Part shown: positions 42,256 to 58,059 of the stretch, in pieces
Position numbering within the stretch: the first letter of the stretch is position 1
Layout: every line of letters starts with the position of its first letter
The notes under the pieces: generated by a model
Database searches by the model: none
What the model was told of the DNA's origin: nothing
The model's input: only the letters and a program-made list of their open reading frames with translations
Assembly (NCBI GenBank): GCA_958295745.1
Contig: OY282370.1
Coordinates: forward strand, 2,516,548-2,580,547
Length of the DNA stretch: 64,000 nucleotides
Origin: an uncultured Acidimicrobiia bacterium
Lineage (GTDB): Bacteria > Actinomycetota > Acidimicrobiia > Spongiisociales > Spongiisociaceae
Direction: 5' to 3'
Position numbers and translations under genes: made by a program

Positions 42256-42551
42256 GTTCTCCCGACTTCATTCTCCGGCGCCGTTCAAGCGGCCACGATA
42301 AACGCCGCCCTTGTCACAGGGTAATGGTAGGTTGATGCGATGATGTACGAACATGGGTTCGACCATACAGATGCCGGCAAACCCGACACGATGGAATCTG
42401 CCTGCTTACCATTGCGGCGGGGTACCAGTGGAGGAGTTTGGAAGCCCCCCGCTATGAACTCGGTCGAGCGGTGCGCGGATGCGGCCGGGTGATAGCGGTT
42501 CCCTGAAGGTCCCTGTGCAACAACGGGATGGGGGCCTCGTAGGAGGGGCCG

Positions 42552-42828
42552 CTACTCAGCGACGGCGATGTGGCGGTGGGGGTTTTCGTGTAGGCCTTCG
42601 AGCCGGGCGATGCCCCTGCCGTTCGCCGTCACCTCGCGGGCCAGGAAATCGAACCGCGTATCCGTCCGGTCGAACCGCTCGTCCACTCGGTCGAACCTCT
42701 GCTCGGACCGCTTCTCCAACCGATCGAACCGTTGTTCAGGCCGTTTTTCCAACCGGTATCTGGTGACGCCAGACCAGCACGGCTACGGTGATGACTACCG
42801 TCGGAGTGATCCATTCAAAAATATCCAT
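42552..42828 (-). pseudogene. membrane/coiled-coil protein, frameshifted copy
   Basis: The first 28 codons encode MDIFEWITPTVVITVAVLVW plus RHQI, as in the intact neighbour. The sequence CAGATACCGGTTGGAAAAA then contains one extra base compared with CAGATCCGATTGGAAAAA in that neighbour, and the frame ends at a nearby TGA. The coiled-coil part (EQRFDRLEKRSEQRFDRVDE ... HIAVAE) remains open in another frame. Part of a tandem duplication of about 400-500 bp that extends into the upstream non-coding region. Confidence 0.8.
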
Positions 42829-43036
42829 GCTCATATCTTACGGTATAAACAGGCGGAAACGAACCCCCTTGTTCCGCGATTTTTGTCGCTCGCGAGGCGG
42901 GTGCGTCCATTCACTGCCCTCGCCCTCGAGTTGTGGGATCCCGACGCTGGTGTGATATTCGGGTGGGTCGTCCCTGTTTTGGGGAGAGGTGGTGTGGTCC
43001 GTCTCGGTTGAGGTCGGCTTTGATTCGAAGGTGCCG

Positions 43037-43354
43037 TTACTCGGCGGCGGCGATGTGGCGGTGGGGGTTTTCGTGTAGGCCTTCGAGCCGGGCGATGCCT
43101 CTGCCGTTCGCTGTCACCTCGCGGGCCAGGAAATCGAACCGTGAATCCGTTCGGTCGAACCGCGTATCCGTCCGGTCGAACCGCGTATCCGTTCTGTCGA
43201 ACTGCTCGTCCACTCGGTCGAACCTCTGCTCGGACCGTTTCTCCAATCGGTCGAACCGTTGCTCGGATCGTTTTTCCAATCGGATCTGGTGGCGCCAGAC
43301 CAGCACGGCTACGGCGATGACTACCGTTGGGGTGATCCATTCAAAAATATCCAT
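43037..43354 (-). CDS. small membrane-anchored coiled-coil protein with heptad repeats
   Basis: 105 aa. One N-terminal membrane helix (ITPTVVIAVAVLVW, residues 7-20) is followed by strict 7-residue repeats (EKRSEQRFDRLEKRSEQRFD, then RFDRTDT three times) forming a charged coiled coil, and a conserved tail (FDFLAREVTANGRGIARLEG). Similar small proteins occur in actinobacteria and resemble the tail-anchored shafts of membrane scaffolds; no function is known. The copy at 42552 has fewer RFDRTDT units, so the repeat number is variable. Confidence 0.72.
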   Translation of the reverse strand: MDIFEWITPTVVIAVAVLVWRHQIRLEKRSEQRFDRLEKRSEQRFDRVDEQFDRTDTRFDRTDTRFDRTDSRFDFLAREVTANGRGIARLEGLHENPHRHIAAAE

Positions 43355-43445
43355 GCTTGTATTTTACAGGATAAACAGGCGGTAGGGAACCCCCTTGTCT
43401 CCGCGAGGTATTGTCACTCTCGAGGCGGGTGCGTCCGTTCACCGC

Positions 43446-44254
43446 GGAGCCGAGACCAAGTCGAGTACGTCACAAGTCAATGTTCCATTGTAGGATTCGC
43501 CCGACCGAGTTCCATTTCTACCCATCATAACGCAGCCGCGCTCATGGTGCCATAAGGTTGCACCCAGATTCCTCCCAATCCTCCGCGAACGCGATTCGAG
43601 CTTCCCAGTCCCAAGAACCCGACCTGCGATCTTCCACCATTCCGGCGATTAGAGCATCGCAGGTGGTCTCATAAACTCTTGGCGGGTCGTCGCGGGTCTC
43701 CGCCTCCGCAGGCCGAGACCGCTTGGTGGGATACTACCACCCAAGAGACGGCTACCACCCTCTGGGTGGTCCACCAGCGAAGTCCAGGACTGCCCGGGTG
43801 CCAGAGTTGAGTCCACGGACGTGGTGTACGGGGGGTGGGAGTTCTTGTATTCGGGTGACCACCGCCAGCGACCGCCGCTCCCACCAGAGGTGTAGCGTTG
43901 TGAGATTGCCCGTGCCGGATAGACTTCCCGAGCGGACGACTGTCTGATCGCGTCCATCGGCAATCCACTTCGATCAGCTTCTTCCTGTAGCCCCTCCCTC
44001 TCACCTTACGTCCGCGGCAGCCTGATCATACCCATGCTCCTACAGCCGCCGTGGTAGTCGTACGGGTTTGCACTCGCGGTAAGAGACTGCTAAGGTTACG
44101 GAAATGTAGTTACGAAGATGGAATTAGCTCCTAATATAGGTAACTACATAGTAGTAAAGTGATCGGGAGCCGCTTAGCCACTCCCGATCTCTGGAATCCT
44201 TGGTGTAGATCCACCCAGGATCCATTTCCGGTTATCCGGGAGGAAGGAGTCCTA
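43446..44254. other. about 800 bp without a recognisable gene
   Basis: Several overlapping short frames occur on both strands, none with a recognisable product or a supported start. G+C content drops near 44.08 kb. Two inverted repeats are present: GTAGTTAC/GTAACTAC (44106-44113 and 44140-44147) and GATCGGGAG/CTCCCGATC (44161-44169 and 44181-44189), the latter about 65 bp before the next gene; they may be regulatory or mark the edge of an inserted island. Confidence 0.5.
44161..44189. promoter_or_regulatory. 9-bp perfect inverted repeat upstream of the MBL gene
   Basis: GATCGGGAG and CTCCCGATC are exact reverse complements separated by 11 bases, located 66 bp before the ATG at 44255. It could be an operator or a hairpin. 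Confidence 0.4.
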
Positions 44255-45272
44255 ATGGGATATGAAGTAGATTTTCTTGCTGTGGGCAATGGTGCACGGA
44301 GCGGTGACGCCATTCTGATGCGTTGGGGTAATCTCAACAGAGGTGGCGATCAGCAGACGGTGGTTGTGGTTGACGGAGGTTTTGATGACGATGCCGATAA
44401 GATTATTGGACATATGGAAAGTTACTACAAGACTGATAGGGTAGACCTTGTAGTTTCCACCCATCCGGATGCTGACCACGTTAATGGCCTTCGAGGGGTT
44501 TTGAGAAAGGCGGATGTCAAGAAGCTCTGGATGCATCGACCCTGGAACCATGTCAATTCCATTTCCCAAAAAAATAAACTTAAAAACAGTTTAGGAGCCG
44601 CCTATGATCTAGAGAAGATTGCTGTACAACGAGGGATCTTAATTAAAGAACCCTTTCCTGGTGTTACTATTGAAGGTAATGCTGGCCTTCTACAGGTAGT
44701 AGGTCCCACAGTTTCCTACTATGAAGAATTAAATCCCCAGCTTTGAAGCTTTGGTAGGGACAAGTACTGCTACTAGACAAGAAGGGTCAAGAGAAGAAAA
44801 CTGGTGGACTGAGACTTTGGATGATAAGGGTGAAACGACCGCCGAGAATAATTCCAGTTCTGTTCTCGGATTTCAGTACAGCAATTCTAAAATCCTTTTG
44901 ACGGGTGATGCAGGTATACCTGCGCTGAACCGTGTAGCCGACTTTCTTCAGCGCTTGCATTGGTTGCAAAATCTTCAGTTTGTCCAAGTACCTCACCACG
45001 GTAGCAAGCGTAATGTTGGCCCTGATGTTCTTAATCGTATACTAGGACCAATCGTGCTTGAAAATAATATACGTGGTACTGCTTTCGTATCGTGTGCTCC
45101 AGATGGGCGTCCTAAACATCCTCATAAAAAGGTAACAAATGCCTTCAAACGTCGCGGCTTTCCAGTGGTTGAGACAGCGGGTAAAAATATTTTATATCGC
45201 CATGATACTCCTCAAAGACCTGGATGGGTCTCGACTCAGTATCTTCCACTCTATTCTATAGTGGAGGATTGA
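44255..45272 (+). CDS. ComEC-like metallo-beta-lactamase fold protein, interrupted by a +1 frameshift at CTT TGA
   Basis: Two frames, 44255-44746 (163 aa) and 44733-45272, together make one MBL protein of about 338 residues. The first has SGDAILMRWG, VVDGGFDDD and the metal motif THPDADHVNGL; the second has ILLTGDAG and VPHHGSKRN, as in the MBL domain of ComEC/Rec2. The frames meet at CAG CTT TGA A (44738-44747): slipping forward by one base from CTT to TTT continues as GAA GCT TTG GTA. This is the slippery site used in prfB, so a programmed frameshift or a simple mutation is possible. The gene is A+T-rich compared with its surroundings and coupled by ATGA to a membrane-protein gene. GGGAGGAAGGAG precedes the ATG. 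Confidence 0.78.
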
Positions 45273-45943
45273 TGATGGCACTAGATATTTACGATAGAAT
45301 AGCTCGTCTTGCTCCTGCTCTACTTGTTATTCTACCGGTGGTAGTTACTTTAGATGTATTGGTTAGTTTTTTTCATGTAAACTCACCGATTACGGTGTAC
45401 TTGGCTCTGCTGTTTGCTGTTTCTGTTCCACTCACAGAGTGGGTAAGAAATAGTGGTAGAAGGATTCAAGAAAAATTATGGACCGATTGGGGTGGTTCTC
45501 CGCTAGCTATCGCCCTAGCTAATCCTCGTGATAGCTCTTCAAAAATGTTGTGTTCAAGAGCAATACAACGACTCCATAGTCTCTATCCTGATATAGTTCC
45601 TATAGATGATTCTGTATTTGATTATGAAACAGTCGGCACATTGGCCGCTGCTTATGCTCGCACGAACGGTAGTCGTATTGTTGCGCCTGAGAACGCATCC
45701 TACGGATTTGCGCGCAACGCATATGGTATACGAACAATAGGCATTGTCATAGCTGTTACGTGCCTCATAGTACTCCTTGTTTTTATCTACTATACTTGGG
45801 ATCCAGCCTCCTGGATAGCGATTCTAGTTGTTACCTTTACCTTTGTCTGGTGGATGATAAGTGTCAGAGAAAAGACAGTTAAACGAGCTGGAGATCGTTA
45901 TGCGAATGCTGTTATACGTTGGTTAGCAAGTGAGCCTATCTAA
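45272..45943 (+). CDS. membrane protein of unknown function, partner of the MBL gene
   Basis: 223 aa. Two membrane helices near the N-terminus (about residues 14-33 and 38-52: APALLVILPVVVTLDVLVSF, ITVYLALLFAVSVPL) and two near residues 153-195 flank a soluble middle part (residues 60-145). The first start overlaps the MBL stop as ATGA behind GTGGAGG; ATG 45275 is an alternative. I do not recognise the family. The two-gene A+T-rich unit (hydrolase plus membrane protein) resembles the layout of small defence or stress modules, which is inference only. Confidence 0.75.
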   Translation: MMALDIYDRIARLAPALLVILPVVVTLDVLVSFFHVNSPITVYLALLFAVSVPLTEWVRNSGRRIQEKLWTDWGGSPLAIALANPRDSSSKMLCSRAIQRLHSLYPDIVPIDDSVFDYETVGTLAAAYARTNGSRIVAPENASYGFARNAYGIRTIGIVIAVTCLIVLLVFIYYTWDPASWIAILVVTFTFVWWMISVREKTVKRAGDRYANAVIRWLASEPI

Positions 45944-46290
45944 ATATACAGGCTTTCTAATCCCATTGAAGTCTATAGAGACGGAATACTGTCTGCAGGG
46001 ATCACCTCGGAGGCATGTAATCGGTCCTTATAGTAATCTACACAGGATATATAACGGTAGTAGTGAGTGTCATTGTAGTGGAATTAGACCAGGAATATCC
46101 TGTGAACTACTACCATCATATCCACAACCATGACTGTCGATATCAGCCTCCTGAGTAACAGCTTACTCGCCGACGCGCTATTGATTGTAGCCATTTACAA
46201 TACCACCTTGATGGATCTCTTTCATATGGTCACGATATGTATGGATCGTTGTACACTCTGAGTCGGCGGTATCGGCGATAGGAAGCGATC
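45944..46290. other. A+T-rich gap without a gene
   Basis: About 350 bp of relatively A+T-rich sequence follows the membrane-protein gene. No credible reading frame, hairpin with U-run or RNA gene is visible. G+C content returns to the high background near 46.26 kb, which places the right edge of the island here. Confidence 0.5.
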
Positions 46291-53928: not shown

Positions 53929-55296
53929 TTATATGACTGTCCAGTTTGGAGCGTATGTATTTTTTCTGAGGTCAGTTGTCATCACTAATTGACCAGTTCC
54001 AAATTTAGGTTGGAGTTCTTTTCTTTCTTCAAGAGCAATCATTAATTTGTCAACTAAACCCTGCTTGTGCATTTGTGAAGTAAATAGCCCAAGCTTTGGG
54101 TTAAAGTATTCAAACCAATCTTTTAGCCTAGGATATATATTTCCTAATATTTCTTCATAAACACCGTGTAATATGCTAACCCATATATCCGCATCAGGAA
54201 ACCACTTGTCTAAGGAATTTGCTATGCACCATTCCAAGATAAATTCGGATGTATTGATAAAGAGAGACGAGTTTTTTGATAACAGTACGGGATTCTTTAA
54301 GACATCTTGGATAGCATCTTGAATAGCAAAGTTATCGAAATCAAAGCTGAGCCTTCCATAATAATAATTAAAGTCAGATTTTGGACTGAGATATATATTC
54401 AATTTTTCTGAAATATTATCTTTTTTTGTAAGAAATTGTAGGGAGGTTGCCAAAGCCCTTTGCAAAGTGTTATCTATATAAATTTCTCCTATAATACTAC
54501 GTATTAATGTGATATACTCTTGGAAGGACTGAGGAGGAAATAATTGGTGATGTTTTCTATCCAAGGGGTGCAGTGGATATATATCAAGGAGGTCTGTAAT
54601 TAAACTCCATGCTATCTTTTCTTTAAGGTTTTGGTCAATTAAAGAATACACTGGTCTAAAGCTTTCGGCCAGCGAACCTGAATAAGTGTTGTAACTAATT
54701 TTACCAATAGCCTCTTTTAGGTATTTGATGTCCTTTTCAACCACAAGTTCACAAAACCTATTCCAACTATCCACTCCCAAATATATCATACTTTTACTTG
54801 TATCGACACAATCTATTCTTATTTGCTCAATATTTCCCCCACTATGTAATATATCAGCTACAGCTAAAGTGACCCCAAACTGCATAGCTAGTGAGCCACA
54901 GGCAAAGTCAACTATATATAGATTTTTCCCTATATTTATATCTTCCTTATTTAGCATCAAATTTATTGAGTTATAGGCCATGTTTATTTGCCTTGGTTGG
55001 TACCAGAGATAATAGCAAAGAGCTACCCATTTATTATCAAAATCAGGCATCCTTTGGCCTTTGAGAAGGTTCAACTGGTCAAAGGCGTATTCAACTTTCC
55101 TTGTTATATCAGGGGTAGATAGTCTATTGGATAGTTCATCAAAATAGCTTTTCCCTGTTTCGCAAATAACTTTATCAAATAAAGAGGCTATTACATGTCC
55201 GTTATCCTTCGTCCAAGGAGTAATTTGAGATGAAGGGATATCTGCTACGTTCTTAACTACTGTTGACTTATCGTTTGTAAGATCATCATTCTTCAT
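53929..55296 (-). CDS. A+T-rich methyltransferase-like protein of unknown function, long copy
   Basis: 455 aa, strongly A+T-rich. Around residues 90-150 it has WVALCYYLWYQPRQINMAYN and LYIVDFACGSLAMQFGV; the latter resembles a SAM-binding motif I in a Rossmann fold, similar in outline to Rsm22-like proteins, but no catalytic motif is clear. An N-terminal VICETGKSYFDELS block is shared with the protein encoded at 57013. GGGAG precedes the ATG. With that paralogue it flanks a radical SAM and an antitoxin-like gene. I cannot assign a function; the composition suggests transfer from a low-G+C donor. Confidence 0.75.
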   Translation of the reverse strand: MKNDDLTNDKSTVVKNVADIPSSQITPWTKDNGHVIASLFDKVICETGKSYFDELSNRLSTPDITRKVEYAFDQLNLLKGQRMPDFDNKWVALCYYLWYQPRQINMAYNSINLMLNKEDINIGKNLYIVDFACGSLAMQFGVTLAVADILHSGGNIEQIRIDCVDTSKSMIYLGVDSWNRFCELVVEKDIKYLKEAIGKISYNTYSGSLAESFRPVYSLIDQNLKEKIAWSLITDLLDIYPLHPLDRKHHQLFPPQSFQEYITLIRSIIGEIYIDNTLQRALATSLQFLTKKDNISEKLNIYLSPKSDFNYYYGRLSFDFDNFAIQDAIQDVLKNPVLLSKNSSLFINTSEFILEWCIANSLDKWFPDADIWVSILHGVYEEILGNIYPRLKDWFEYFNPKLGLFTSQMHKQGLVDKLMIALEERKELQPKFGTGQLVMTTDLRKNTYAPNWTVI

Positions 55297-56033: not shown

Positions 56034-56960
56034 CTACCAGGGCGGTTTGAAGCCTTCCTTGCCTTCGCCCAGGGGCGGCAGGCCATTGTTACGGAGTTTG
56101 TCCTTGAACACTCGGACGAACTGCCGATAGTGATTGAGGTATTCACGGTCGAAGTCCTTGCCGCTGCCTAACTTCTCCGACATCAACTCGAAAGCCTGGG
56201 ATCGGGTTTGTGCTACGAACTTGCCTTTCTTGAAGTGGAAGGGCTGGGCGATGAACTTCCGCACCCCGGTGTCTATCAGGGCATCGGCGAAGGCCTGGTG
56301 ATCCTCGACCAGCAGTAGCGGGGTCATGGTGATGCAGGAGGTGATGCCGGCCTCCTGGACTTTGGTGATGGCTTTCAGCCGGGCCGGGTTGGGCGGGCAG
56401 ATTGGTTCGAAGGTGCGCATGATGTCCGGGTCGTCGGTTGTGACCGTCATGTTGACCTGGACGCGCCCGCCCCGTTCTTCGATCCTCTTGAACAGGTCGA
56501 TGTCGCGTGTGACTAGCTGGCTGCGGGTCTGCACCATCAACTTTGGTTTGTGCCGTTCCGCCATGGTCTCCAGCAGACGTCTAGTCAGCTCCAACTTCCT
56601 CTCGATAGGCTGATAAGGATCGGTGACGCTGCTCATGTAGATGAGTTTGCCATCCAACCATCCAGGCTTGCGCCGTTGTAGTAGTTTTACGGCGTTTTCT
56701 TTAACGACGACCCAGTTACCCCAGTTGTCTACCTGCTCCTTTTTCCGGCTGAAAAAGGCTGCGTAGCAATAGGTACAGCCAAAGGAGCAACCGCTATATG
56801 GATTCAATGTGTAATCGTAATCACCCATGAACCCGGTGGCACGAGTCAATATGTCACTTGTCTCTTTGTATTCAATATCAGCTCGACCATAGCGCTTGAT
56901 CTGGATAAACTGATGCGAGTCATCTATGATTAATGACATCTGATCATTATCTTTGGTCAT
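56034..56960 (-). CDS. radical SAM protein, SPL-like (spore photoproduct lyase family)
   Basis: 308 aa from ATG 56960; a TTG at 56996 is an alternative. The iron-sulfur motif is CSFGCTYCYA (Cx3Cx2C), preceded by LTRATGFMGDYDYTLNPYSG, and followed by IYMSSVTDPYQPIERKLELT and VQTRSQLVTRDIDLF. This layout fits the SPL-like radical SAM group (PA0069/Rv2578c type), whose substrates are mostly unknown. It lies between the two methyltransferase-like paralogues on the same strand, so a modification pathway involving all three is possible, but this is inference. Confidence 0.87.
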   Translation of the reverse strand: MTKDNDQMSLIIDDSHQFIQIKRYGRADIEYKETSDILTRATGFMGDYDYTLNPYSGCSFGCTYCYAAFFSRKKEQVDNWGNWVVVKENAVKLLQRRKPGWLDGKLIYMSSVTDPYQPIERKLELTRRLLETMAERHKPKLMVQTRSQLVTRDIDLFKRIEERGGRVQVNMTVTTDDPDIMRTFEPICPPNPARLKAITKVQEAGITSCITMTPLLLVEDHQAFADALIDTGVRKFIAQPFHFKKGKFVAQTRSQAFELMSEKLGSGKDFDREYLNHYRQFVRVFKDKLRNNGLPPLGEGKEGFKPPW

Positions 56961-57012
56961 TAGCGTCGTCTCTCCGTCCCGGGTTGCTAGAGGCAATTAT
57001 CTTGACTCCAAG

Positions 57013-58059
57013 TTACCCTCGGGTGTGTAGATTGGTTTCCTGCCATCCGCTCTCTGTGATATATTTTATGTAGGGTGCACTATTAGGACTTGATAAATTA
57101 AAGGTGACGTTTTTCCTAAGTAAGGCCTGCTTCTTAATAGGATAGTTTTGGGCCATATTATTCCTTAGTTGGGTAGTTTTTTCAAGTTTATTCGTCCATA
57201 TATTGGGAAATATATCTATAGGCATAGAAGAGGAAAAGGAACTAACAGCCTTTGTCGCTTTATCAACAAGCACTGCTTTAGAGTCTTGTGAACTGAATAA
57301 TCCTAAGTTAGGTAAATATCGGCCATAAGTAGCGAGCATATTCTGGAACTCAATCGTCACCTTATTTATATTTATTTCATAGAGACCATGCAACATAATA
57401 AACCATATATTATGAAACCATATATAATGCTCAATAATGCTCCGTACTTTAAAAGGATTATCCTTGTTACAGAATATATGTAAGGGATGCTTATTTATCA
57501 CTTTTAGGGCTTGCTGTAATTTATTATTTCCGGATATATGATTTGTCAACTGATTATTCCCAATAGAACTCTTGAAATTTCCCCAGCTTATTTCTCCCAA
57601 TTTAGTCATACATGAGCTTTCGTCAACAAAATCTATAATAATATGGTCTACTGTTTCGCCGCGATCTATATAATCGGTTAAAGCTAAAATAAAACCATAC
57701 AGTGTAGCTAGCGAACCACACGCATAATCAACCATATATAAGTTGCCATGAAGGTCTATCTTCCTAGACTGTAGTAAATAGCTAATTGATCTGTAGGCTA
57801 GTTGTATTTGTTTTGGCTGATACCAGAGGAAATAGAAAAGGGCAACCCATTCATTATTATAATCAGGCATCTCTGAACTAGAAAGCCTCATATTTTCAGA
57901 GAGAGCTTTATCAATTTGTTTTCCAATTTGTTCTGGATTTAATCCTTCTGAAAGATATTGGAACTGAGACTGCCCTGTTTCACAGATAACTTGGTCTAAT
58001 ATTAATAAGATTGTATCCTTATTACGCTCGGTCCAGGTCTGTTGATGTACCTCTGTCAT
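57013..58059 (-). CDS. A+T-rich methyltransferase-like protein of unknown function, short copy
   Basis: 348 aa, A+T-rich. It shares VICETGQSQFQYLSEGL, WVALFYFLWYQPKQIQLAYR and LYMVDYACGSLATLYGFIL with the protein encoded at 53929, so both have the same SAM-binding-like core. The C-terminal half is shorter. The start has a strong ribosome-binding site (AAGGAGAAGAC). It is probably the first gene of a minus-strand cluster with the radical SAM gene. Function not recognised. Confidence 0.75.
   Translation of the reverse strand: MTEVHQQTWTERNKDTILLILDQVICETGQSQFQYLSEGLNPEQIGKQIDKALSENMRLSSSEMPDYNNEWVALFYFLWYQPKQIQLAYRSISYLLQSRKIDLHGNLYMVDYACGSLATLYGFILALTDYIDRGETVDHIIIDFVDESSCMTKLGEISWGNFKSSIGNNQLTNHISGNNKLQQALKVINKHPLHIFCNKDNPFKVRSIIEHYIWFHNIWFIMLHGLYEININKVTIEFQNMLATYGRYLPNLGLFSSQDSKAVLVDKATKAVSSFSSSMPIDIFPNIWTNKLEKTTQLRNNMAQNYPIKKQALLRKNVTFNLSSPNSAPYIKYITESGWQETNLHTRG

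Follow-up and report, generated by a model that had tools for sequence, protein, structure and literature searches.

The locus analyzed here raises the question of whether a gene for a ComEC-type MBL-fold hydrolase that ends in CTT TGA, the hexamer of the prfB frameshift site, yields its full-length product through programmed frameshifting, and what kind of module this gene forms with the membrane protein gene that follows it. The window, i.e., the whole stretch of DNA that was analyzed, comprises 64,000 nucleotides from an uncultured Acidimicrobiia bacterium. The pair is a candidate module of a known kind, with a new membrane partner and an ordinary frameshift; there is a good probability that it represents a horizontally acquired two-gene candidate phage-defense module, the MBL gene of which has been broken here by an unprogrammed frameshift. 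Its features, with the evidence for each, are as follows.

44100 to 46280, no strand: low-G+C insertion that carries the module (G+C content and synteny comparison)
44238 to 44249, plus strand: Shine-Dalgarno sequence, GGGAGGAAGGAG, 5' of the MBL start (sequence)
44255 to 44746, plus strand: MBL hydrolase, N-terminal half of 163 aa with HPDADH at residues 70 to 75 and CTT TGA at its end (PDC-M48B, 2.9e-38; Lactamase_B, 4.7e-8)
44732 to 44746, plus strand: interval of the frame change (last stop of the downstream frame at 44730; in-frame TGA at 44744)
44745 to 45272, plus strand: MBL hydrolase, C-terminal half, read in the second frame and containing the TGD and PHHGS motifs (PDC-M48B, 3.6e-38; ComEC_Rec2, 3.3e-11)
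45263 to 45267, plus strand: GGAGG Shine-Dalgarno sequence of the membrane protein gene (sequence)
45272 to 45943, plus strand: class I membrane protein, starting at ATG 45272 or 45275 (profile of 21 relatives, AF2)

The open reading frame at 44255-44746 has CTT as its last codon before the stop TGA (44744-44746); the next frame stays open up to 45272. Each half matches the PDC-M48B profile by itself, over positions 5-164 and 199-355 of 357, respectively, and the 338-aa read-through product matches that profile (PDLC04676) from end to end with an E value of 2e-76. An alignment of 56 rows shows no variation at the metal-site residues H70, D74, H75, D218, and H247/H248 and almost none at D72. 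The first-pass annotation was thus right that a +1 shift restores a whole protein with both metal-site blocks. The predicted fold of the read-through protein has a pLDDT of 94.2, and its top PDB match, by both sequence and fold, is the beta-lactamase-like domain of ComEC (9ic4; E value of 3.4e-16, TM scores of 0.62/0.77). Judging from sequence and the structural model, this protein is a member of the PADLOC candidate defense family PDC-M48B with a predicted ComEC-nuclease fold. Two variable segments are located between its HxDxDH and TGD motifs, and in the predicted fold the break coincides with the beginning of a variable loop that is modeled with lower confidence.

Since a stop at 44730 closes the downstream frame on its 5' side, the change of frame must lie within 44732-44746. 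Any frame change inside this interval terminates at one and the same TGA (44744-44746), and the identical stop that results from any break within 15 nt speaks against reading the CTT TGA, in frame at 44741-44746, as the site of a programmed shift. The position of the change could be narrowed further with the help of homologous sequences, in which the columns for residues 160 and 163 were checked both with and without alignment. Residue 160 is L, I, V, or C in all 97 relatives, compared to N in the upstream frame of the window and I in its downstream frame; at residue 163, 73 of the 97 have F and 3 have L, and here the upstream frame encodes L and the downstream one F. Accordingly, the summed profile score is 9.1 bits for a change placed before residue 160 versus 1.6 bits, the lowest of five placements, for a change at CTT TGA. 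The homologue columns therefore put the frame change 9-12 nt upstream of CTT TGA and disagree, at both residues, with a shift at CTT. The claim that the gene is split exactly at CTT TGA holds insofar as the open reading frame does end in this hexamer, but not with respect to the exact site, which is a matter of placement and for which the homologues rank CTT TGA last.

Conservation provides a second line of evidence. The homologous MBL frame is unbroken at 126 of the 130 loci examined, and the other four break at other places and in other contexts; because the locus search favors intact frames, the real fraction of broken copies may exceed 4/130. Each of these four is broken at a different place, one by a frameshift (L033:4001-5060, from Variovorax) and three by internal stops (L088, L096, and L151). 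The split at CTT TGA is therefore not conserved among the 130 homologous loci, the very outcome that had been named at the outset as pointing to a simple mutation or a sequencing error. When single-base insertions were simulated in the MBL gene, 7 of 3,673 (0.19%) terminated at CTTTGA, a chance that is unusual for a single gene and not remarkable for a feature picked from a large scan.

The elements of prfB-type frameshift sites have been reviewed (PMC13245932), and the host genome supplies an internal control. Its own prfB (G000, L185:2507-2521, minus strand) reads AGG AGG TTC CTT TGA, beyond which RF2 continues in the +1 frame; this host does use CTT TGA, a point that can be cited for a programmed shift in the MBL gene. 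This prfB site is hidden from open reading frame and family searches by a long open +1 frame upstream; a reading of that one long frame as evidence for a host without prfB autoregulation was dropped, because the +1 frame is open upstream by chance and the DNA has the canonical prfB site. At the position where the host prfB carries its Shine-Dalgarno sequence (AGGAGG, one codon before CTT), the MBL gene has AAATCCCCAG, and no Shine-Dalgarno-like sequence was found one codon upstream of its CTT TGA, as had been noted from the sequence alone. The MBL gene thus shares with the programmed +1 frameshift of prfB an in-frame CTT TGA hexamer at the break, but its site lacks a Shine-Dalgarno sequence 3 nt upstream, is not conserved, and is disfavored by the homologues relative to a change upstream. 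Basal +1 slippage at CTT TGA without a Shine-Dalgarno sequence could still yield a little full-length protein.

The suggestion that the active form of the enzyme requires frameshifting had to be abandoned, given the unbroken frames of the homologues, the upstream placement indicated by the conserved residues, and the missing Shine-Dalgarno sequence. A prfB-like programmed +1 shift at CTT TGA that gates the production of the full-length nuclease is now highly improbable, the break is very probably unprogrammed, and CTT TGA is simply the first stop codon in the wrong frame. The evidence favors mutation, which had been put forward as a real alternative, and rejecting the frameshift claim spares the recoding literature a false example.

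The MBL gene would then carry a recent +1-type frameshift within 44732-44746, more likely a genuine mutation than an error in the sequence. In the case of a sequencing or assembly error, the gene would be truly intact and the module functional. This reading, which appears rather unlikely, draws on the short homopolymers inside the 15-nt interval, on the otherwise undamaged state of both MBL halves, and on the assembly being a 9-contig genome. However, the neighboring genes for an FAD oxidase, an ABC transporter, and a thiolase-like protein align with their relatives over their full lengths in one frame, so indel errors are not rife in this region. A mutation, if real, would be recent, because both halves are otherwise undamaged; with intact halves and all metal ligands in place, the alternative to a recent break is that the enzyme may retain some activity. 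This genome's copy of the MBL is probably inactive or nearly so and, with a broken enzyme gene, the module probably does not function here.

Gene fission would provide yet another explanation: the two chains would form a functional two-piece MBL, in effect a nuclease that is already cut and that the membrane protein, rather than an uncut loop, would keep in check. The cut would fall in the second variable loop region, the one whose proteolysis activates the gated relatives HamM and Avs1a. The break does coincide with the beginning of a variable loop of lower confidence, and HamM that was engineered to be pre-cut shows activity and toxicity (PMC12799240). However, no homologue is split at that place, and the sole start codon of the downstream half is a TTG that lacks a clear Shine-Dalgarno sequence. 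Fission is regarded as a very slight possibility.

The origin of the module could be addressed from its surroundings. The island of clearly lower G+C content seen in the first pass was confirmed: its G+C is ∼43%, compared to ∼66% in the flanks, over approximately 44100-46280, with a range of 0.39-0.54 within the island and of about 0.6-0.68 beyond it. The flanks, which encode an FAD-linked oxidase, an ABC transporter, an EamA protein, and a thiolase-like protein, are syntenic in two genomes of the same family (G001 and G004), with 60-83% identity. The module has no match at the syntenic locus of either of these two relatives, in which the spacing between the EamA and oxidase genes is 1.3-2.3 kb versus 4.0 kb in the window. 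This absence and the shorter gap indicate an insertion in the lineage of the window, and the sequence comparisons identify the module as a recent, horizontally acquired insertion. A search of the host's own order for relatives of the module returned general MBL/ComEC-type matches only. Inverted repeats with arms of 16 and 17 nt are found at 46049-46121 and 44158-44192, that is, at both island ends, and may represent terminators or what is left of a mobile element. Just 5' of the module, at 42544-43445, a stretch of ∼0.4 kb is duplicated (86-90% identity, spacing of 485-528 nt) and holds a short open reading frame that resembles a coiled-coil membrane protein. The window also contains a second low-G+C island, in which two related A+T-rich proteins without a Pfam family (53929-55296 and 57013-58059, minus strand) flank a spore-photoproduct-lyase-type radical-SAM gene (56034-56996) and a small open reading frame.

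The second gene of the module overlaps the first one in TGATG and has its own GGAGG (45263-45267), which corrects the earlier view of coupling by a 4-nt ATGA. Its product, which belongs to the family termed class I here, matches a profile of 21 relatives with an E value of 7.5e-36, and the AF2 model (pLDDT of 93.9) has four TM helices, a helical segment between the second and the third, and a C-terminal helix; the conserved motifs of class I are YxxxAR, W-GG-P, and YGFxRN. Neither Pfam nor PADLOC has a family or model for it, so its description as a four-helix membrane protein of unknown family stands. The protein shows no match to PDC-M48A, and class I is unrelated to class III in profile comparison. 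Searches for a solved structure returned a best Foldseek E value of 0.81 and a best VIA Z score of 6.7, the latter to ABC-transporter helices; such values are within the chance range for helical bundles, so no structure was assigned.

Membrane partners of five classes adjoin the MBL gene at 121 of the 131 loci, the window included. According to the profiles, the partner belongs to class I, the type found in the window and the commonest in the loci examined, at 63 of these 131 loci, to class II at 32, to class III at 21, to class IV at 2, and to class V at 3; most of the ten partnerless MBL loci are at contig ends. Class III corresponds to PDC-M48A of PADLOC. Classes I and IV are related (95.8% probability in profile comparison), and the other classes are unrelated. 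Adjacency is kept across different arrangements: the partner may lie upstream, downstream on the same strand, or in convergent orientation, the last being the case in P2-like prophages. On the MBL tree of loci L030-L159, a quick tree with weak support at 38 of its 115 inner branches, the partner type changes at least 17 times, compared to a minimum of 3. The near-constant adjacency combined with these swaps argues that enzyme and membrane protein are true functional partners and that the membrane side is exchangeable. What stays constant in PDC-M48 is the MBL nuclease, which is coupled to at least four unrelated families of small membrane proteins that replace one another on its tree, and the current PADLOC pair model covers just one of the partner families. 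This pattern predicts a widespread, partly unannotated defense-type family.

The relatives of this MBL are located on plasmids, in P2-like prophages of E. coli, in Peduovirus phages, and on viral contigs. The prophage loci L120-L131, L139, L147, and L188 combine the MBL gene with a convergent gene for a PDC-M48A-type membrane protein, and in P2-like E. coli prophages the pair adjoins replication gene A. P2-like phages are known to have a defense hotspot (PMC9122126); a term search of that paper found no mention of MBL- or ComEC-type proteins. In raw counts, type I methyltransferases comprise 6 of the 113 neighboring proteins of the relatives, and the raw listing of these neighbors also includes MADS2, site-specific recombinases, and more PDC-M48B proteins. 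Another PDC-M48B model was matched in 4 of the 113 (e.g., L115:2429-3343), so the MBLs themselves are sometimes paired. No test of PDC-M48 against phage was found in the literature, and neither PDC-M48 nor 6A-MBL was found in open papers. With the MBL in a PDC-M48B candidate family and almost always beside a small membrane protein, the proposal of a candidate defense module has held up, and the genomic evidence makes a defense-type function likely.

As to the mechanism, a ComEC-type MBL-fold nuclease of PDC-M48B would have a small membrane protein, here of the four-helix type, as its near-constant genetic partner. The MBL would act as a DNA nuclease that the membrane, by way of this partner, keeps in place or regulates, and phage infection would let the nuclease loose; the membrane protein, instead of a protease, would supply the restraint or placement of the MBL. 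The relatives of this MBL in the Hachiman and AVAST systems are gated DNases and serve as the effectors, and pre-cut HamM is toxic (PMC12799240). By this analogy, the membrane-held nuclease is a tentative proposal to which we give somewhat less than an even chance.

Its main rival assigns the effector role to the membrane protein, which would be a toxic pore, with the MBL as its controller or trigger, the two making up a membrane-depolarizing abortive-infection pair. Such a role would fit the alternation of unrelated small membrane families as partners, in the manner of exchangeable membrane effectors elsewhere, and the weak similarity of PDC-M48A and class IV to Csx27. However, it is the MBL and not the membrane protein that is constant, in Hachiman and AVAST it is the related MBLs, which are DNases, that serve as effectors (PMC12799240), and class I matches no solved membrane structure. 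A pore effector is hence somewhat unlikely, and the membrane-held nuclease is retained as the working model. Whether the partner localizes, restrains, or acts together with the ComEC-like nuclease is now a testable question.

Among the known systems, Csx27, the accessory protein of CRISPR type VI-B, weakly resembles PDC-M48A and the class IV partners in profile comparison (E values of 1e-3 to 1e-4) but shows no match to the class I protein of the window. The MBL nuclease domain of ComEC/Rec2 shares with the window protein its fold (9ic4) and the HxDxDH ... PHHGS motifs. In contrast to ComEC/Rec2, however, the latter is a stand-alone MBL of 338 aa with larger loops and no DNA channel or OB domain, and its halves match TIGR00361 only at the C-terminal end of that model.

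The gated MBL pro-nucleases (HamM, Avs1a, LmuA, the DRT RTasMBL, and CanC) contain a related MBL with a shared ComEC-like fold, and profile matches of the read-through protein include LmuA (5e-22), RTasMBL (6.5e-22), and Avs1a (1.8e-9). Against the NCBIfam model of Avs1a (NF041809), the halves score 28.3 and 26.7 bits, far below the curated cutoff of 420, and a search of four genomes yielded no Avs1a sequence for a comparison of the loops. Unlike these pro-nucleases, the window MBL has no adjacent protease gene, of either the trypsin or the caspase type; its neighbors are the membrane protein and metabolic genes. PDC-M48 itself, as defined in PADLOC, differs from the module in the window in that the partner found here is not PDC-M48A but a class I 4-TM protein that lacks a model, and in the broken state of the MBL gene. 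It agrees with the module in the MBL, which corresponds to PDC-M48B over its whole length, and in the pairing of this enzyme with a small membrane protein.
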